The position numbers and the translations under genes are program-made. 64,000 bases of DNA from Bordetella parapertussis. Lineage in GTDB: Bacteria > Acidobacteriota > Terriglobia > Bryobacterales > Bryobacteraceae. The notes beneath the pieces are model-generated. The model had not been told where the DNA came from. It ran no database searches and worked only from the letters and a program-made list of their open reading frames with translations. The stretch covers positions 1 through 64,000 of the forward strand of contig CALQCC020000010.1 in assembly GCA_943328975.2 (NCBI GenBank), written 5' to 3'. Shown piece by piece: positions 15,146 to 23,826 of the stretch (position 1 is its first letter; each line of letters starts with the position of its first letter).

Positions 15146-15934
15146 CTACTTCCCGACCATGTGATACACGTCTTCGTTGTTCTCCTGGCAGACGTACTCT
15201 GATAACTCGCCGCCGGGAACGAACGGGATCGTGAAGGCGTTCGACCACGTCTCGCTATAAGCGCCCGGGTCGTCGATGGTGAATTCGTAGCGCATCGTCA
15301 ACTCGTCCACGCGTGTGTAGCGTTCGATCACATGCAACTGGTCACTATGCGGCGAACCGTCCTGGTCCAGCCACGTGCGATCGTTGAAGGCGATGTTGTC
15401 CACCACCAAGGTGTCGCCATCCCAATGTCCGCGCGGCTCTCCCAAGTACGTCGGGAACGGGTCCTTGCTATGCGGCTTATCCATTGGGATGATGCGCCAC
15501 ATGTGAGCGCCGCCTTCCCACACCTGAATGATGCGGTCCGGGAGCTGGTAGATCTGGAACGGGAACGGCGTCGCTTGCATGCGCGGGATGCCCGGAGGCA
15601 AGCAGCGGGATTCGGGATCGTCCTTCGCCAGGTTCTCCTGCGCGACGTCATAGAAAGCCTTCGCCCACGGCAAGAACGGCAGCTCAAACCGCTTTTCTAC
15701 GGGCGAGCGCGCGGGGCCTTGGCGTCCCGTGCCGCTCATGTTCGCGATGGTGCGCGGATTCCATGCGCCCTTACCGTTGCCGAGGTCGGGTTTGCCGTCC
15801 GCCATGCGCGGAGTAGGTCCTGCTTTGGTCCCCTTAGCGACGTCGTTCATGCGTCCACCGACCACTTGTCCAAATACCAACGTCGCGAACGCACCGAAAA
15901 TCAACGCGCCCTGAATGACTGCACGAAATCGCAT
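15146..15934 (-). CDS. Secreted protein of unknown function, 262 aa
   Basis: A signal peptide (about 1-22, ending LVFG) is followed by a Trp/Pro-rich mature domain with RCLPPGIPRM, IYQLPDRIIQVWEGGAHMWR and GEPRGHWDGDTLVVDNIAFND. Proteins of this pattern are, as I recall, abundant in soil Acidobacteria and often next to quinoproteins, but I know no assigned function. It starts 9 bp after the PQQ dehydrogenase stop on the same strand, so the two are almost certainly co-transcribed and the product may be a periplasmic partner of that enzyme. Confidence 0.75.
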   Translation of the reverse strand: MRFRAVIQGALIFGAFATLVFGQVVGGRMNDVAKGTKAGPTPRMADGKPDLGNGKGAWNPRTIANMSGTGRQGPARSPVEKRFELPFLPWAKAFYDVAQENLAKDDPESRCLPPGIPRMQATPFPFQIYQLPDRIIQVWEGGAHMWRIIPMDKPHSKDPFPTYLGEPRGHWDGDTLVVDNIAFNDRTWLDQDGSPHSDQLHVIERYTRVDELTMRYEFTIDDPGAYSETWSNAFTIPFVPGGELSEYVCQENNEDVYHMVGK

Positions 15935-15943
15935 GTTGCTATC

Positions 15944-17707
15944 TTACTCCGGAACGGCGAATGACAAAATATTCTGCCCTGCTGCGATGGCCACGTATTG
16001 CTTGCCGTCGAACATGTAGGTCATCGGCGAGGCCTTCCAGACTTGATTCGTCTGAAACTCCCACAGCGATTTACCGGTAGCGGCGTCAGCGGCGATAAAG
16101 GCCCCGCTGTTGTCGGCGTAGAAGACAATGCCCGCCGCGGTCGAGATCACGCCGCCGGATGCTGTCAAATCGCGGCTGACTTGTGGGACCTCCCACTTCA
16201 CTTCGCCAGTCTGAATGTCGATGGCGCGCAGATATTTCTCGAACGTCTCACCCGGAACCGGACGTCCCGCGCCTCCCATGAAACTGCGGCCCGCTTGCCA
16301 GTCGCCCTTGGTGATCGAGAAGATATTGCAGCGTTCGAGCGCGTTGAAATAGTAGAGGCCGGTTGCCGGATTGTACGACGTAGAGAACCAGTTCGCGCCG
16401 CCTTGGAATCCTGGGCACACGTAGGTGTTGCCGTCGGCGGTCTTGGGCAGTTCCTTCAGGATGGGCCTTCCGTCCTTGCCGATGCCGTCGGCCCAATTGA
16501 GCTTCTTGAGAAACTGCTTGCCCAGCAGGAACTGACCATTGGTGCGGTCGAGTACGTAGAAGAAACCATTGCGATTCGCTTGGACCAGCAGCTTGCGAGG
16601 TTGCCCGCCCCAGTTCGCGTCGATCAACACTGGCGGTTCCTGCGCGTCCCAATCGTGAATGTCGTGCGGAGTGAACTGGTAGTACCACTTGAGCGCGCCG
16701 GTCTTTACGTCGAGCGCAATGATGCAGTCGGTGTAGAGATTGTCGCCGAGGCGGTCGGCCCCATCGTAGTCGGGGCCGGGGTTACCGACCGGCCAATAAA
16801 CAAGGCCGAGCGTTGCGTCGTAAGTACCCGTCATCCACGTCGCGCCCGAGCGGTGGTCTTTGTTCGCGCCCTGCCAGGTGTTCTCCACTTCCTGCGCGCC
16901 GGGTTGGCCGGGGCTGGGAACCGTCCACACCTTCCATACTTCTTTGCCCGTCACTTGATCGTAGGCCGCGACGAATCCGCGCACGCCTTCATCGCCGCCC
17001 GCGGTTCCGGAAATCACTAGTCCGTTTGCAGTCAGCGGAGCGGACGTTCCGTTGTAGTTCTGCTTGTAGTCCGCCATCGTGGTTTCCCACAGGAGTTCGC
17101 CATTGGCGCGGCTGAGTGCCAATAGGTGCGCGTTGTCGGTCAGCAGGAAAATGCGATCGCCTTCCCACGCCACGCCGCGATTGAAGCCGATGGCCGCGTT
17201 GCCCGCGATTCCCTGTGTGCGTGCGCGGCGATAGTGCCAAACCTGGCGGCCGCTTCCTGCATCTAGCGCCCACGCTTCGTTCGCGCTGGAAAGATACATC
17301 ACGCCTTCGACAACTAGAGGCGTCGTCTCCACCTGATTCACATTGCCGACGGGAAAGATCCACGCCGGTGCGAGCTTCGCCACATTGGTCTTGTTGATCT
17401 GCGTCAGCGTCGAATAGCGATTGCCGCCCGGCTGTCCGTTGTAGGTGGGCCAATCGGTCTGCGACGTCACCAAGCGATAACGTCCACCGTCCAATTTGCG
17501 CAGCAAGCGGATGCGTCCGCCCGCCTCGCGCATTTGCAGGTCGGTGGAGCCTTCATTCACCACCACGCCGCGAATCGTTTGGCCGTCGGTGGTGGTGATG
17601 GCGCGTTGGTCTTCAGCCTGCACCTGGTTACGAGCGAGGGCGTCTTGGCCCAAGAGGGCCGTGGCCGTGAGGAACGAAACAGACATCAAAACAAAGTGCG
17701 TTCGCAT
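15944..17707 (-). CDS. PQQ-dependent dehydrogenase, eight-bladed beta-propeller
   Basis: A periplasmic quinoprotein (587 aa) of the alcohol/aldehyde dehydrogenase superfamily, transferring electrons to cytochrome c. After the signal peptide (MRTHFVLMSVSFLTATALLG), residues 75-587 carry repeated propeller blades with Trp-docking motifs such as WALDAGSGRQVWHY and IALDVKTGALKWYY. The active-site loop reads HDIHDWDA, with the likely catalytic base D352 and a second Asp at 354, the position diagnostic of lanthanide enzymes. No fused cytochrome domain is present. Start was moved to ATG 17707, where the signal peptide begins 6 nt after a TATTAT box. The substrate is not predictable. Confidence 0.88.
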   Translation of the reverse strand: MRTHFVLMSVSFLTATALLGQDALARNQVQAEDQRAITTTDGQTIRGVVVNEGSTDLQMREAGGRIRLLRKLDGGRYRLVTSQTDWPTYNGQPGGNRYSTLTQINKTNVAKLAPAWIFPVGNVNQVETTPLVVEGVMYLSSANEAWALDAGSGRQVWHYRRARTQGIAGNAAIGFNRGVAWEGDRIFLLTDNAHLLALSRANGELLWETTMADYKQNYNGTSAPLTANGLVISGTAGGDEGVRGFVAAYDQVTGKEVWKVWTVPSPGQPGAQEVENTWQGANKDHRSGATWMTGTYDATLGLVYWPVGNPGPDYDGADRLGDNLYTDCIIALDVKTGALKWYYQFTPHDIHDWDAQEPPVLIDANWGGQPRKLLVQANRNGFFYVLDRTNGQFLLGKQFLKKLNWADGIGKDGRPILKELPKTADGNTYVCPGFQGGANWFSTSYNPATGLYYFNALERCNIFSITKGDWQAGRSFMGGAGRPVPGETFEKYLRAIDIQTGEVKWEVPQVSRDLTASGGVISTAAGIVFYADNSGAFIAADAATGKSLWEFQTNQVWKASPMTYMFDGKQYVAIAAGQNILSFAVPE

Positions 17708-17712
17708 TGCCT

Positions 17713-17719
17713 CATAATA
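17713..17719. promoter_or_regulatory. Overlapping divergent -10 boxes
   Basis: CATAAT (17713-17718, plus) and TATTAT (17719-17714, minus) share five base pairs. The plus box is 7 nt before the hydratase ATG and the minus box 6 nt before the quinoprotein ATG, so both transcripts would begin at or within a base of their start codon. The whole intergenic space is 18 bp. Confidence 0.5.
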
Positions 17720-17725
17720 TCGAAG

Positions 17726-18499
17726 ATGACTGCCGGAGATTTTCTCGCCGCCCGTTCGGGCCAACGTGCCATCGATACGCTCCCGTCCGCCAACGGTTTT
17801 GATCTGGACGCCGCCTATGCCATGGAGACGGAGATAGTGCGACTGCGCGAAGCCGCGGGCCAGTCTGCGGTGGGCCGCAAAGTGGGCTTCGCGAACAAAG
17901 CGCTATGGCGGATTCTGAAGCTGGATACCGTCGTGTGGGCGCACATGTTCCACGACACGGTGCATCACGCTGAGCAAGGCGTGGCGGAACTCGCCGTATC
18001 GCACCTGCGCGCGCCCAAGATCGAGCCAGAGATTGTGATGAAGCTCCGTAATCCGGAAACTGGCATTGGGCTAGAAGGAGTGGAGTGGATCGCACTGGGC
18101 TTTGAGATCGTGGACTGTCCGTATCCGGACTGGAAGTTTCAACCCGTCGATTTCGTAGCGGCGTGGGGATTACACGCGGCGTTGATTGTAGGCGCTCCGC
18201 AGGCTGTCACGCCTGCGTCGATCGAGACGCTGAGCCGGCAACTTGCAGACTTCAAGTTAGCCTTGTCGCGAAACAACGAAATGGTGGAAGAAGGTGCGGG
18301 CAAGAACTGTCTACGCAGCCCCGCGTTATGCCTTGAAGAGCTTGCCAAAGCGGCCACCGCGCGCGGCGACGCACTACAGCCCGGAGAAATCATCAGCACC
18401 GGATCGCTGACCAGCGCGCAGCCGATCGTGGCGGGCGAAGAGTGGCGCGCTGAGTTGAACGGCCTGCCGCTGGCGAGCCTGCGGGTTCACTTTACTTAA
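17726..18499 (+). CDS. 2-keto-4-pentenoate / 2-oxohepta-3-enedioate hydratase family (FAH superfamily)
   Basis: Hydrates 2-oxo-alkenoates produced by meta-cleavage of catechols. The 257-residue size matches MhpD/HpaH. Family features seen are VGRKVGFANKAL near residue 51, the metal-binding Glu pair in KIEPEIVMKL, and the GEIISTGSLT region near the C-terminus. The start is ATG 17726 (MTAGDFLAARSG); the 64-residue upstream extension lies over the signal peptide of the divergent quinoprotein and is not real. No ring-cleavage dioxygenase is present in this window. It converges with the Rieske beta gene, sharing TTAA as both stop codons. Confidence 0.82.
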   Translation: MTAGDFLAARSGQRAIDTLPSANGFDLDAAYAMETEIVRLREAAGQSAVGRKVGFANKALWRILKLDTVVWAHMFHDTVHHAEQGVAELAVSHLRAPKIEPEIVMKLRNPETGIGLEGVEWIALGFEIVDCPYPDWKFQPVDFVAAWGLHAALIVGAPQAVTPASIETLSRQLADFKLALSRNNEMVEEGAGKNCLRSPALCLEELAKAATARGDALQPGEIISTGSLTSAQPIVAGEEWRAELNGLPLASLRVHFT

Positions 18500-18972
18500 A
18501 GCGGAATCACCAACAAAGTATCGATGCGGCGCGAATCCGCCACCACGATGCGTTCCTCAAAGCGTGCGCCATCGGGATCCAGCGCGATCTTGTCCAGATA
18601 AACTCCGGCCGAAAAAATACTCATGTCGCCGTCCGCCATGGTGCGGATTACCAGGTAGTTCGAGCGGCACACTGCGGTTTCGCCGTCGAACGATTCAATC
18701 AACAGCCCGCTGATCTGATGCGAATAGCGGTGCGGCTCATACACGTTGATCTTGCGCAGTCCTGTGACGCGATCCGCTAGCATGCCTTGCCCCTGGCATT
18801 CCATCAACCCCAGTGCGAGTCCTTTGTCGAAGTTCTCCCGCGTGGTGATGCGATAGAGGCAATAGTCGGTAAACAGTTCCGGCCATTCCTCGATGCGATC
18901 GTCGTCGATCAAGCGAATATAGCGGGCTTGCAGGTCTTCAATCTGTCGGCGTTGCGATTCAGTCAAGTTCAT
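18496..18972 (-). CDS. Aromatic-ring-hydroxylating dioxygenase, beta subunit
   Basis: The small structural subunit (158 aa) of a Rieske oxygenase. It shows the cone-fold pattern of the Ring_hydroxyl_B family: DDDRIEEWPELFTDYCLYRITTRENF near the N-terminus and FEERIVVADSRRIDTLLVIPL at the end. The ATG directly follows the stop codon of the alpha-subunit gene (TAG-ATG), so translation is coupled and 1:1 stoichiometry is expected. It has no cofactor of its own. Sequence style is closest to salicylate-5-hydroxylase/anthranilate-dioxygenase small subunits, but the substrate is uncertain. Confidence 0.88.
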   Translation of the reverse strand: MNLTESQRRQIEDLQARYIRLIDDDRIEEWPELFTDYCLYRITTRENFDKGLALGLMECQGQGMLADRVTGLRKINVYEPHRYSHQISGLLIESFDGETAVCRSNYLVIRTMADGDMSIFSAGVYLDKIALDPDGARFEERIVVADSRRIDTLLVIPL

Positions 18973-20202
18973 CTATAACCCCATCAGCGCGCGATAGCCG
19001 GTCCAAAAGCCGCGCAGCGTTGCCTCAGTGGCGCGCGATCCTCGGCAGGATTCCACCGCGCTGCCACCCATCTCCATCACCGCGCTATCGTCCATACCCG
19101 TGCCGCCGATACCGCGCTGCACATATTCGCCGATTACGCCGTCATCAATCGAAACGTAGCCCGCAGGTCCAATTAAATTCGCCTGCGTGAGTCGCATCTG
19201 GCGCAGTTCCGGCGTATCGTCTTTGTACCCGAACACCGTCCAGTGCAGTTCGCAGCGCTTCGGTCCCTGCGGCGTCAGTTGCCGGATCGCCAGGGTGTTG
19301 TAGATTTGTTGGTTCACGCACGTCGGGAACATGGATTGAATCGCCACCGTGATTCCGTCTTCAAATTCCTGCGTGCGCTTGAGCAGTTCCGGTCCGGCGA
19401 GCCCTACATCCTCGACCACGTTACGCAGCCCAGCGCTATCGTATTCTCCGCCTTCTTTCAGCGTCGCACCCATGGAGAAATTCATGCTGTGCCAGCCGTC
19501 GTGTTCCAGCGTGATACCGCCATCCATCGTCAGGCGATTCAGCTTGAACGTAGCGTAGAAGGCGTGCAGAATCGTCGCGTGATACGGATCGCGCGAGTTT
19601 TCCATGTACAGCTTCCAATTGTTCTGCAGGGACTGATGATAGTACCCGAGCACTTCCACCGGCTTATGAAACACGCGCCGCAAATGTGCGGTCATCAGCG
19701 GGCCCAAGTACGGCTCCAGTGCCTCCACTTCTTTACTGAACGTCCCGAATACCAGCCCGCAATACGATTCGACGCGCAATCGCTCCAGCCCGTGGTCAGA
19801 GAACTTGAAGGTCTCCGGCATGCCGCCTTGTCCATTTACGCCGCGATGAAACGGTACGCCGCACAGGTTACCTTGCAGGTCGTAACTCCATGCGTGATAT
19901 AGACACGTAAGTTGGTTTGACTTGCCCGAGGATTCCACGCACACCAGCGCGCCTTTGTGCGAGCAGCGATTGACCAAGCCATGGATGCTGCCGTCTTTGT
20001 CGCGCGTGACGATCACCGGCGTCTCGCCGATGTGCGTGGTGCGAAACGTGCCGGGCTCAGGCAGTTCGGCGTCCAGACACAAGTAGTGCCACGTTGGTCC
20101 GCGAAAAATCTTTTGCTGCTCCTCGGCGTATATCTCCGGATCGGCCAACACGCGATACGGTGCACGCGTTACGCCTTCGCTTGGCCAAATAAGTGGTGTC
20201 AC
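18973..20202 (-). CDS. Aromatic-ring-hydroxylating oxygenase, alpha subunit (Rieske non-haem iron)
   Basis: The catalytic subunit (409 aa). The Rieske [2Fe-2S] ligands C80, H82, C100 and H103 and the mononuclear iron site (D205, H208, H213 in ENSRDPYHATILH) are all present. ENxxDPYHAxxLH is typical of the salicylate-5-hydroxylase/anthranilate-1,2-dioxygenase group. The GTG start overlaps the last base of the transporter stop (TAGTG), so three genes (MFS, alpha, beta) form a coupled operon. No ferredoxin or ferredoxin reductase gene is near, so electrons must come from elsewhere in the genome. Exact substrate is inference. Confidence 0.92.
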   Translation of the reverse strand: MTPLIWPSEGVTRAPYRVLADPEIYAEEQQKIFRGPTWHYLCLDAELPEPGTFRTTHIGETPVIVTRDKDGSIHGLVNRCSHKGALVCVESSGKSNQLTCLYHAWSYDLQGNLCGVPFHRGVNGQGGMPETFKFSDHGLERLRVESYCGLVFGTFSKEVEALEPYLGPLMTAHLRRVFHKPVEVLGYYHQSLQNNWKLYMENSRDPYHATILHAFYATFKLNRLTMDGGITLEHDGWHSMNFSMGATLKEGGEYDSAGLRNVVEDVGLAGPELLKRTQEFEDGITVAIQSMFPTCVNQQIYNTLAIRQLTPQGPKRCELHWTVFGYKDDTPELRQMRLTQANLIGPAGYVSIDDGVIGEYVQRGIGGTGMDDSAVMEMGGSAVESCRGSRATEATLRGFWTGYRALMGL

Positions 20203-21386
20203 TATCTCTCCCTAAAACGAATTCCCATCATAAACACAACGATGGCGGCGATCACCATCGGCACCGCAGCCAATTGAAAAATCTTCGGCGTGGGCCAGCC
20301 CAGCGCCAGCAACCAGCCTCCCGCCAGTGGTCCGAGAATGCCGCCCCCACGTCCGATTCCCAAAGCCCAGCCCACGCCGGTCGACCGGATACGCGGAGGA
20401 TAGAACAATACCGCGAGTGCGTTCACGCTCTTCTGCGCGCCACTGACGCAGAATCCCGCGGCGAAGGTCGCAACGGAAACCGCGGCCAGCGATGTGGGGA
20501 CCGAGCCCACCAGTGCTACGAATACCGCACCACCTGCGTACAGCGCCGCGAGTACGCGATACGGGCCCATTCGGTCCATCAGCGGTCCACTCAGGATTCC
20601 CGCGACGATCCCGCCCACCGAGATCAGCGTCGTCACCAGTATCGCCTGCGGTTGCGCCAAGCCGGATGACGTAAGCATCGTCGGCATCCAACTTTGCAGG
20701 AAGAAAAATTCGAACAGGTTCATGAAGAACACCACCCACAGCAGAGGCGTTCCTACGCGGTGTGGGCCGTCGAACAGTCGCGCAACGGGCACACGTTCGC
20801 GCGTGAGTAATTGCTCCGACTCCGGTAGCTTCCATGCCAGCAGCGGCAGTAACGCCAAAGGCACGATGCCGCCGATCAAGAAAATAAAACGCCAGCCGTG
20901 CTCCGCGATCAACGATGCGGCAAGTCCGCCGCCCAATACGGAGCCCAATGAAAAACCGCAAAACATAGCGACCGTAACCGTCGCGCGCCGATGTGGAGCC
21001 GAATATTCTCCGGTCAGCGCCAGCGCGTTCGGCATCGCTCCGCCGAGGCCGATACCCGCAGCGATGCGGTACAACATCAGATCTGTAACGCCCTTCGCTT
21101 GCGCGGTCAGCAGGGTGAACGCGCCAAAGAGCAGCACCGAAATCAAGATGGTCCGCTTGCGCCCCCACACATCGGCCAGTGGTCCGAGTGTCAGCAGCCC
21201 GCCCATCAATCCGAGCAGGCCAGCCGAGAATACCGGCCCCAACGTTGCTGCTGGGATCTTCCACTCCGCCGCCAATGCCGGACCCAGGTACCCGATCACT
21301 TGTGTGTCGAGTCCATCGAGCAGCACCACCAATCCGCACAACACCGCGACGCGCAGTTCAAGGGATTTGGCCATGGTTCGTCTCAT
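20202..21386 (-). CDS. MFS transporter, aromatic acid:H+ symporter family
   Basis: A 394-residue, 12-helix permease. The first helix carries LLDGLDTQVIGYLGP, matching the DGxD charge motif of PcaK/BenK-type aromatic-acid importers, and the loop after helix 2 has GPLADVWGRKRT, the MFS motif A. It starts the operon with the Rieske oxygenase subunits and is therefore likely to import that enzyme's substrate. The start is ATG 21386 or, equally possible, ATG 21374 (MAKSLELRV). It diverges from the second quinoprotein gene. Confidence 0.88.
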   Translation of the reverse strand: MRRTMAKSLELRVAVLCGLVVLLDGLDTQVIGYLGPALAAEWKIPAATLGPVFSAGLLGLMGGLLTLGPLADVWGRKRTILISVLLFGAFTLLTAQAKGVTDLMLYRIAAGIGLGGAMPNALALTGEYSAPHRRATVTVAMFCGFSLGSVLGGGLAASLIAEHGWRFIFLIGGIVPLALLPLLAWKLPESEQLLTRERVPVARLFDGPHRVGTPLLWVVFFMNLFEFFFLQSWMPTMLTSSGLAQPQAILVTTLISVGGIVAGILSGPLMDRMGPYRVLAALYAGGAVFVALVGSVPTSLAAVSVATFAAGFCVSGAQKSVNALAVLFYPPRIRSTGVGWALGIGRGGGILGPLAGGWLLALGWPTPKIFQLAAVPMVIAAIVVFMMGIRFRER

Positions 21387-21402
21387 GGATTATTGCATGC
21401 AT

Positions 21403-21408
21403 TATGAT
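21403..21408 (+). promoter_or_regulatory. TATGAT -10 box of the second quinoprotein gene
   Basis: TATGAT lies 7 nt before ATG 21416, the codon that begins the signal peptide. No ribosome-binding site is visible, so a leaderless transcript is suggested. The box overlaps the alternative upstream start codons at 21404 and 21407. Confidence 0.4.
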
Positions 21409-21415
21409 GGTCCCC

Positions 21416-23092
21416 ATGCGATACCTTGCCTTTCTGTTTTGTCTGGCTGCGGCGCACGCGCAAACCGGGGCGCCCACGCGCGCCGATTGGAGCAGCTACG
21501 GCGGCACGCAATATAGTTGGCGCTACAGCAGCCTGAATCAAGTGACGACGCAGAACGTGAAGCAACTCGCGCCCGCGTGGCTGTTCCAGACCGGAGACTA
21601 CTCTGAGAACCTGCACTCCACGCCTATCGTGGAAAACGGGGTCATGTACGTGATCACCGCTCGCCTGCAAGTGTTCGCATTGGACGCCACCAACGGCAAA
21701 GTGATCTGGCACTACCGCTACCCGACCCCGGTGGCCGGCCGACCGGGCACGCACTCCGACTTCATTCAGAATCGTGGTGTTGCCATCGGCGCTGGCAAGG
21801 TATTCTTCGGAACCAAAGATAACTTCATGGTCGCGCTGGATCAGCGAACGGGCAGGGAAGAGTGGAAGGTTGCGATGGATGATCCCAAGCAGTGTGGCTG
21901 CAATATCACGGGCGCGCCACTGGTGGTCAAAGACAAAGTCATCATCGGCGGCAACGGTGGCGATCAAGCGCATCGCGGCTACCTGACTGCGCTGTCCACG
22001 AAGACCGGCCGCCTAGCGTGGCGCTGGTACGTCGTACCTGCTCCGGGCGAAAAGGGAGTGGAGACATGGAAGGGTGATAGTTGGCGCTACGGTGGCGGAG
22101 CCCCTTGGCTCACGGGCTCCTACGATCCCGAACTGAACTTGCTGTACTGGGGGACGGGCAACGCTGCGGCCGATTTCTACGATGGAGACCGTGTCGCGAC
22201 GGGCACGAACAAAGGCGGCCCGGTGAATCTCTATACCGCCAGTGTAGTCGCGCTCGACGCCGACACGGGCACGCTTCGTTGGTATCACCAGGAGGTCCCC
22301 GATGACGTGTGGGATTTCGATGCCGCCTACGAAGTGCTGTTGATGGATCGCGAAGTGAAAGGCCAAATGCGCAAGATCCTGGTCCACATGAACAAGAGCG
22401 GATTGACCTCCGTGCTCGATCGTGTGACGGGCGAGTATCTCAGCGCCTTCATCGTGCCCGAGGTGTACAACTGGATCACGGGCGTCACGGAAGACGGCAA
22501 GCTGGTGGGACGCAACGAACCCGTGCTGGGGCAGAAGACCAACCTTTGTCCTTCAACGGCAGGCGCGAAAAGTTGGAACAGCATGGCGTATTCGCCGCGC
22601 ACCGGCTATATTTATACGCCGACGAACGAAACCTGCAACGACATCACATCCAACGCTACGCCCGCTCGCGAGGGGCAGTTCTATATGAATGGCGACTTCC
22701 CGATGACGTTGCCGCCGAATCGCACCACCTATAGTCACGTCGATGCGTGGGACCCGGTGACGGGCAAGCGCATGTGGTCCATGCCGTATCGCCTGATGCT
22801 GTTGTCCTCAATGCTCGCGACTGCGGGTGACTTGGTGTTCACCGGCGATCCCGAGGGCAACTTCTTCGCGCTGGATGCGCGATCGGGCGATAAATTGTGG
22901 AGCTTTCAAACGGGCGCGGGCCATCGCGGCGCTGCGATTTCGTATTCGGTGAACGGCAAGCAGTACATTGCGACAACCACCGGCTGGCATCAGACAGTCG
23001 TCGGTGGCGCTGTGGCGCGATTGTTCCCAGAAGAAGAGTTCCGGCTAGGGTCCACGTTGGTCGTCTTCGCATTGCCGGAGGGCACACGATGA
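21416..23092 (+). CDS. PQQ-dependent dehydrogenase (second copy, beta-propeller)
   Basis: A periplasmic quinoprotein of 558 residues with signal peptide MRYLAFLFCLAAAHAQ. Propeller repeats run through the protein (WALD/ALDATNGKVIWHY, ALDADTGTLRWYH, ALDARSGDKLWSF). The active-site loop DDVWDFDAAYE provides D300 and D302 (numbered from 21416), again with the extra Asp linked to lanthanide use. A CGC pair (QCGCNITGAPLV) stands where alcohol dehydrogenases of this family often have a vicinal disulfide. Starts at 21404 or 21407 would add up to four residues before the signal peptide. Its stop overlaps the cytochrome c gene (ATGA), so that is the likely electron acceptor. Confidence 0.9.
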   Translation: MRYLAFLFCLAAAHAQTGAPTRADWSSYGGTQYSWRYSSLNQVTTQNVKQLAPAWLFQTGDYSENLHSTPIVENGVMYVITARLQVFALDATNGKVIWHYRYPTPVAGRPGTHSDFIQNRGVAIGAGKVFFGTKDNFMVALDQRTGREEWKVAMDDPKQCGCNITGAPLVVKDKVIIGGNGGDQAHRGYLTALSTKTGRLAWRWYVVPAPGEKGVETWKGDSWRYGGGAPWLTGSYDPELNLLYWGTGNAAADFYDGDRVATGTNKGGPVNLYTASVVALDADTGTLRWYHQEVPDDVWDFDAAYEVLLMDREVKGQMRKILVHMNKSGLTSVLDRVTGEYLSAFIVPEVYNWITGVTEDGKLVGRNEPVLGQKTNLCPSTAGAKSWNSMAYSPRTGYIYTPTNETCNDITSNATPAREGQFYMNGDFPMTLPPNRTTYSHVDAWDPVTGKRMWSMPYRLMLLSSMLATAGDLVFTGDPEGNFFALDARSGDKLWSFQTGAGHRGAAISYSVNGKQYIATTTGWHQTVVGGAVARLFPEEEFRLGSTLVVFALPEGTR

Positions 23093-23826
23093 AAAACGTA
23101 CTGTTGCTCACTGTGCTGGCCTCGGCCCTCTCCTATGCGCAACCTACTCGCGGCGAAACCGTTTTCGTGCAGACGTGCGGTTCCGGCTACTGCCACGGGG
23201 TGCGCGGCACTGGGGCGGGAGCTCCCCGGTTAGCGGCCCGCGGGTTCGATCAGAATTTCATCCGCAATACGGTGAGCAACGGAATCGCCGGCACCAGCAT
23301 GCCGCCTTTCGCCCAGAGCCTCTCTCGTGCGGATCTAACTGCCGTCGTCGGCTACGTGGCTGGACTGAATGGCGTGACGATCCCCACGGGCAGCGCAACC
23401 GGACCTGCGCCTGCGGCCCCGAAACTGACGGCCCAGGCAGCGCGTGGACAAGCGCTCTTCATCGACGCCGTGAAAAGTTTTGGCCGCTGTTCCACTTGCC
23501 ATCAAGTGGGCGGCTTCGGTATCCCCGTGGCCGCGCCGATTCACGACGTGCCTCTGACAGTGGCTGCGCTGAAAGCACTCAAGACACCGAGGGTGGTCAC
23601 CGCAACGATCGGAACTGAATCAATGCCGGGGTTGGTTGTAGCGAAGAAGGCGACCGCCGTGACGTTCTACGACCTGACGATGCCCCCGCCGGTGTTGCGA
23701 ACGGTTGCTCCCGCGGAGTTCAATAGTCGCGAAGAGTCGGCGTGGCGTCATTCCACCGTGATGGGTGCTTACAGCGATGCGGATTTGACCGCAGTCCTCG
23801 CCTATCTCCGCGTTGCCGCGAAGTAG
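23089..23826 (+). CDS. Dihaem-type cytochrome c with an unusual CX4CH site
   Basis: A periplasmic cytochrome (245 aa) with signal peptide (1-17, ending SYA). The C-terminal domain has a standard haem site C134-S-T-C137-H138. The N-terminal domain reads C30-GSGY-C35-H36, a CX4CH spacing instead of CX2CH, followed by a plausible axial Met at 71 in SMPPF. It overlaps the quinoprotein stop by 4 bp and most likely accepts its electrons. Whether haem attaches at the first site depends on the host cytochrome-maturation system. Confidence 0.85.
   Translation: MKNVLLLTVLASALSYAQPTRGETVFVQTCGSGYCHGVRGTGAGAPRLAARGFDQNFIRNTVSNGIAGTSMPPFAQSLSRADLTAVVGYVAGLNGVTIPTGSATGPAPAAPKLTAQAARGQALFIDAVKSFGRCSTCHQVGGFGIPVAAPIHDVPLTVAALKALKTPRVVTATIGTESMPGLVVAKKATAVTFYDLTMPPPVLRTVAPAEFNSREESAWRHSTVMGAYSDADLTAVLAYLRVAAK

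Follow-up and report, generated by a model that had tools for sequence, protein, structure and literature searches.

Two genes for dehydrogenases of the pyrroloquinoline quinone (PQQ) type, here called P1 and P2, lie close together on contig CALQCC020000010.1 of a Bryobacteraceae-related genome, within a stretch of 64,000 nucleotides (the window), and both encode an active-site loop of the Asp-x-Asp (D-x-D) type. The question that the locus raises is whether this loop makes P1 and P2 lanthanide-dependent alcohol dehydrogenases, as a sequence-only reading of the DNA had suggested. Based on the alignments, the paralogue census and the tree presented herein, P1 and P2 are most likely ordinary members of a large acidobacterial expansion of quinoproteins, and we consider it fairly probable that they are active PQQ dehydrogenases with a lanthanide-compatible site that use scavenged PQQ. 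The two genes and their loops are as follows.

15944..17707, minus strand: P1, predicted periplasmic PQQ-dehydrogenase-type protein with a signal peptide, a small N-terminal beta domain and an eight-bladed propeller (PF01011, NCBIfam, AlphaFold2)
16646..16654, minus strand: P1 loop D371-W-D373, the catalytic Asp and the Asp equivalent to XoxF D301 (alignments)
21404..23092, plus strand: P2, predicted periplasmic PQQ-dehydrogenase-type protein (PF01011, TIGR03075), with a probable start at 21404, 21407 or 21416
22313..22321, plus strand: P2 loop D379-F-D381, the catalytic Asp and the Asp equivalent to XoxF D301 (alignments)

The Loops and the Metal Site of P1 and P2

Both P1 and P2 are full-length members of the PF01011 family by profile search (E values of 1.8e-89 and 1.4e-81, respectively). 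The open frame of P1 (15944-17764, minus strand) has 606 residues counted from a TTG, and the start is likely Met20 at 17707, which is followed by a signal-peptide-like stretch. The open frame of P2 (21179-23092, plus strand) has 637 residues counted from a GTG, and because alignments with its homologues begin only at about residue 69-84, we take the long frame to be an artefact of this upstream GTG, with the true start probably at one of the ATG codons at 21404, 21407 or 21416. The loop of P1 (...FTPHDIHDWDAQE) reads HDIHDWDA and that of P2 (...EVPDDVWDFDAAY) reads DDVWDFDA, with the two Asp residues at D371/D373 and D379/D381 in open-frame numbering. Both loops are therefore present as the sequence-only reading had reported them, and its residue numbers, D352/D354 and D300/D302, are the same positions counted from Met20 of P1 and from Met80 (21416) of P2.

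The metal and PQQ sites were compared with those of solved enzymes by phmmer alignment to PedH (6zcw), XoxF (6dam) and the quinohaemoprotein alcohol dehydrogenases (qhADHs) 1kb0 and 1kv9, and by a joint alignment with the XoxF of SolV (4mae), in which D299, D301, E172, N256 and R326 fall on their expected numbers. The second Asp of both P1 and P2 aligns with D301 of XoxF (6dam, 4mae) and with the equivalent Asp of PedH (6zcw), at a position occupied by Thr in the qhADHs and by Ala in MxaF. P1 and P2 also hold the equivalents of D299, W238 and N256, which are the catalytic Asp, the stacking Trp and the metal-ligand Asn, and have kept Arg110 and Thr154 as well. Position 326 is Arg in P1 and Lys in P2, and at position 172, where the solved lanthanide enzymes carry Glu172, both have Asp.

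These residues are conserved well beyond the two proteins. D371, W372 and D373 of P1 are invariant across 34 homologues, and its second Asp is kept in 80/80 homologues found by a search that used the loop itself as one of its patterns; it is also present in all 23 of the homologues that lack the exact PHDIHDWD string. Among the 24 homologues of P2, W238, N256, D299 and D301 are kept in every one and D172 in 23. The second Asp of P1 and P2 is a conserved site and no chance match.

Modeling of P1 with AlphaFold2 gave a predicted local distance difference test score (pLDDT) of 86.4, and the best match of the model in the PDB is PedH (6zcw; Z 47.8, root-mean-square deviation 2.3, 502 residues aligned), with chains of the methanol dehydrogenase fold matching at Z 41-48. 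The model thus places PedH among the best matches of P1, but the Thr-type qhADHs 1kv9 and 1yiq tie with it, so that the structure favors neither the lanthanide nor the Thr type. The best named relatives are from Bryobacterales metagenome-assembled genomes (86 and 83% identity). As a separate observation, the small beta domain of P1 (ITTTDGQTIRGVVVNEGSTDLQMREAGGRIRLLRK; window 17465-17617, minus strand; open-frame residues ~50-100) precedes the propeller, is modeled with a pLDDT of ~90 and for the most part falls outside the region that aligns with the best solved relatives.

The Second Asp among Paralogues and in the Tree

The 4.34 Mb source genome contains 36 alignable full-length paralogues of the PQQ-dehydrogenase fold (at loci including L001-L020 and L029-L044). 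Every one of these keeps both the catalytic Asp and the stacking Trp; at position 301, 31 have Asp, three have Thr and two have Asn. Two paralogues drawn at random would both carry Asp301 with a chance of 0.74. Because 31 of the 36 share it, the second Asp is uninformative about P1 and P2 in particular, and the earlier argument that two such genes within 7.5 kb suggest rare-earth-dependent alcohol oxidation loses its force.

The relationships were examined in a maximum-likelihood tree that was built by a quick search, supported by the Shimodaira-Hasegawa-like approximate likelihood ratio test (SH-aLRT) only and rooted at the midpoint with no outgroup. XoxF and MxaF share a clade (support 100), whose counterpart with PedH also takes in the qhADHs (SH-aLRT 87). 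P2 and its homologues form a separate clade (100), and P1 and its homologues form another (100) that adjoins the paralogues L007, L009, L011 and L019. As placed by these sequences, the P1 and P2 clades are separate, mainly acidobacterial, and outside both the XoxF/MxaF and the PedH/qhADH groups. We therefore rejected membership in XoxF, from the tree position and from the lack of a Cys-Cys pair and of Glu172, and likewise membership in ExaF/PedH, since PedH branches with the qhADHs and P1 and P2 branch elsewhere. The paralogues with non-Asp loops fall in nested groups, with L001, L002, L004 and L006 near the qhADHs and MxaF within XoxF, and for this reason the Asp301-type residue is probably the usual and ancestral state of the superfamily.

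This bears directly on the value of the motif. The second Asp had been taken as the accepted marker of lanthanide-dependent enzymes, and that status was established inside the XoxF/ExaF-PedH group, outside which P1 and P2 branch. It is cut further by E. coli Gcd, which has the same D-x-D motif (DLWDMD) and is active with Ca/Mg; Gcd (m-GDH) can use Ca, Mg, Zn or Sr, and only facultative lanthanide use is predicted for it (PMC11996626). In the sorbose-type dehydrogenases, of which 4CVB is described as calcium-dependent (PMC11996626), position 301 is Glu. Of the rare-earth interpretation, then, the residue, its position and a complete metal and PQQ site stand, and the status of the motif as a marker for the P1 and P2 clades does not. 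Lanthanide use by P1 and P2 is possible on these sequence comparisons.

Cofactor Supply

That about 36 paralogues with intact sites are encoded without a known cofactor supply is an odder fact than the metal loop. The source genome (99.66% complete) has no detectable PqqC, nor do 22 sampled congeners, and PqqC is present in 2/41 relatives and in 15/297 genomes of the phylum. PqqE and PqqB were not found in the source genome or in congener G281, and both scored over cut-off in four positive-control genomes; since they were not found, PQQ synthesis by the source organism itself looks excluded. A close PqqU was not found in the source genome either, where the best match to E. coli PqqU scores 29.6 bits, and matches of 212-311 bits occur in 9/247 genomes of the phylum. 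PqqU in Acidobacteria has been found only in Vicinamibacteria, and for other Acidobacteria, synthesis of their own PQQ or its entry by diffusion was suggested as a possibility (PMC12124388). Across genomes that were not chosen at random, the number of PQQ dehydrogenases does not track PqqC, with 0-7 strong TIGR03075 matches in genomes with PqqC and 0-27 in those without. That P1, P2 and their homologues have retained the site residues argues against proteins that are empty of cofactor and for the use of scavenged PQQ or a related quinone.

Lanthanide Context

No lanmodulin-type protein was found, in that the EF-hand_7 model (PF13499) matches nothing in the source genome and is positive in two control genomes, a result that leaves other EF-hand models and other lanthanide binders possible. 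XoxF was not found in the source genome by the paralogue census and the tree, and profile scans with Pfam and NCBIfam recognized no lanthanide genes in the neighborhood of P1 and P2. The lanthanide uptake genes that might have backed the sequence-only reading, an EF-hand lanmodulin-like protein or any linked lanthanide gene, thus did not turn up. In print, XoxF3 is reported in Solibacteres and other Acidobacteria (PMC10875860), and unusually high numbers of D-x-D enzymes, with as many as 70 in one genome, are reported from three Acidobacteria and from a set of Pseudomonadales (PMC11996626), so that lanthanide use in the lineage is plausible and has been proposed before; for P1 and P2 themselves it is an inference.

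A real XoxF (PHDAWDYDGINE, with Cys-Cys and SGGEYGVRG) is encoded in congener G281 (L162, 4911-7130), which lacks PqqC as well as PqqB and PqqE.

Proposed Mechanism and Alternatives

The mechanism that we put forward involves one neighboring gene.

23089..23826, plus strand: probable dihaem cytochrome c (PF13442, E 5.6e-17; CX4CH and CXXCH haem motifs)

Its start overlaps the stop of P2 by four bases (ATGA), and a cytochrome c adjoins the P2 homologue in 19 of the 24 homologous loci. We propose that both P1 and P2 are secreted and active as dehydrogenases, within the superfamily of PQQ-dependent enzymes with an eight-bladed propeller. In each, PQQ would sit above a single metal ion coordinated by Asp172, Asn256, Asp299 and Asp301 (XoxF numbering), and Asp299 would act as the catalytic base. 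The substrate would be an alcohol or an aldehyde and not specifically methanol, and the electrons from P2 would pass to the translationally coupled dihaem cytochrome c, which is probably its acceptor. In this hypothetical mechanism Asp301 would let the site accept a lanthanide without showing a need for one, and PQQ would be supplied from outside the cell, because none of the tested synthesis genes is in the genome.

Several points weigh against this proposal. The vicinal Cys-Cys of XoxF and PedH is missing in P1 and P2, the source assembly is a draft of 69 contigs, and a quick tree with SH-aLRT support and a midpoint root leaves the ancestral state as something we infer. Catalysis, metal and cofactor are predicted for P1 and P2 and likewise for their close homologues, and the name 'acido-empty-quinoprotein' that NCBI gives to the family next to P1 implies that its curators doubt PQQ binding.

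The alternatives differ in the metal and in the cofactor. P1 and P2 could be strictly lanthanide-dependent alcohol dehydrogenases like XoxF and ExaF, with Asp301 completing the Ln3+ site; the Asp sits where such an enzyme should have it and does not vary among homologues, PedH matches P1 best in both structure and sequence (though tied with the Thr-type qhADHs), and the same motif is taken as a direct predictor of lanthanide use in a survey where acidobacterial genomes are among the motif-rich ones (PMC11996626). We regard this as possible and yet doubtful, given that both proteins lie outside the validated clades, have Asp and not Glu at 172 and no Cys-Cys, share the motif with E. coli Gcd, and come from a genome with no EF-hand_7 protein or XoxF and no lanthanide gene nearby. 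The case of Gcd itself could apply, such that the enzymes are metal-promiscuous or have Ca2+ or Mg2+ as the physiological metal in spite of the second Asp. The DLWDMD loop of Gcd, the metals with which m-GDH works (PMC11996626), the acidic Glu at position 301 of the Ca-type sorbose dehydrogenases and the Lys at 326 that P2 shares with Gcd and qhADH all point this way, but in the tree both proteins lie closer to the group of alcohol dehydrogenases than to Gcd and P1 has Arg326 as in XoxF and PedH, and we consider this rather unlikely.

The remaining alternatives concern the cofactor, and here the NCBIfam scores are relevant. P1 scores best with TIGR04528 (502.9 bits, cut-off 650) and reaches 460.5 bits with the methanol/ethanol family TIGR03075, under the curated cut-off of 480.05, and P2 passes TIGR03075 (484.8 bits) and scores 385.8 bits with TIGR04528, under its cut-off. 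Paralogue L019 passes the TIGR04528 cut-off and shares the HDxHDWDA loop. With this match of P1 and L019, and with PqqB, PqqC and PqqE absent in a manner consistent with lost PQQ synthesis, the proteins could be "empty" propellers that have no PQQ and serve in binding or assembly, or that use another quinone. We find this very improbable: none of the 36 paralogues and hardly any homologue has lost the catalytic Asp or the stacking Trp, P1 and P2 retain Asn256, Thr154 and Arg110, residues that the loss of a cofactor should release, and P2 keeps its cytochrome c partner. Unlikely, too, in our judgment, is a lineage of Acidobacteria with ~36 quinoproteins, 31 of them with lanthanide-type sites, in which P1 and P2 would represent two non-XoxF lanthanide classes and which, neither making PQQ nor importing it by a recognizable PqqU, would use a novel PQQ uptake route or a different quinone. 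Compared with these alternatives, we favor active dehydrogenases with a lanthanide-compatible site and scavenged PQQ.

As a side observation, the name 'acido-empty-quinoprotein' fits L019 badly, since this paralogue keeps the catalytic Asp, the Trp, the Asn and the second Asp; a literature search on TIGR04528 found no publication.

Comparison with Known Systems

P1 and P2 share with PedH/ExaF (6zcw, 6zcv) the fold, the D-x-D loop, Asn256, the Trp and, in P1 only, Arg326, and PedH is the closest solved match of P1 at ~35% identity. They differ from it in having no Cys-Cys, in Asp for Glu at 172 and in their separate clade, and the loop of P1 reads His-Asp-Trp-Asp where that of PedH reads Trp-Asp-Phe-Asp. 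XoxF (6dam, 4mae, 6oc5) has the same fold, Asp299/Asp301 and Asn256, but is only 32-37% identical, and P1 and P2 lack its Cys-Cys, its Glu172 and its DYDG(I/V)N loop, fall outside the XoxF/MxaF clade and have no recognized xoxJ-like neighbor. TIGR04528 (group A) is the best NCBIfam model of P1 and, as here, concerns Acidobacteria without PQQ synthesis, although both proteins miss its cut-off. E. coli Gcd resembles them in its D-x-D loop, in Lys at 326 (P2) and in its dependence on imported PQQ, which for Gcd is through PqqU, and differs in its membrane domain, its clade and its sugar substrate. The marine D-x-D expansions, which include Acidobacteria (PMC11996626), likewise have many D-x-D paralogues per genome, whereas the Bryobacteraceae-related genome studied here is without PqqB, PqqC, PqqE or a close PqqU and neither P1 nor P2 is in a clade of known metal.

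Surveys count D-x-D PQQ dehydrogenases as lanthanide-dependent. Because the motif is here the norm in clades for which no metal has been measured, such counts are an extrapolation, one that could be put to the test with a single purified enzyme from an acidobacterium. The sharing of PQQ between environmental bacteria also becomes a direct question, given so many quinoproteins whose sites are intact and whose cofactor has no known supply.

Gene Neighborhood

The other genes around P1 and P2 that bear on their function are listed below.

15146..15934, minus strand: secreted protein of 262 residues with no recognized family, 9 bases downstream of P1
18496..21386, minus strand: small and large subunits of a Rieske ring-hydroxylating dioxygenase (AndAd/AndAc-like) and an aromatic-acid-type major facilitator superfamily (MFS) transporter, between P1 and P2
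29004-30548, minus strand: homologue of HpaB-type 4-hydroxyphenylacetate 3-monooxygenase (TIGR02310, 726.6 bits, under the cut-off of 885)

One of the two haem motifs in the P2-coupled cytochrome c, CX4CH (CGSGYCH), is atypical, and the other is CXXCH (CSTCH). The 262-residue secreted protein has no match in Pfam or NCBIfam and adjoins P1 in both of the closest relatives (L051, L052) as well, and many acidobacterial loci (L064, L095, L097, L103 and others) have a distant relative of it close to a dehydrogenase of the P1 family. L052 has the same gene order, P1-Rieske-MFS, and P1 homologues elsewhere lack it, for which reason a role of P1 in aromatic breakdown is only hinted at. The HpaB-type gene lies ~6 kb beyond P2, and together with the Rieske dioxygenase and the aromatic-acid MFS gene it possibly marks a region for the breakdown of aromatic compounds.

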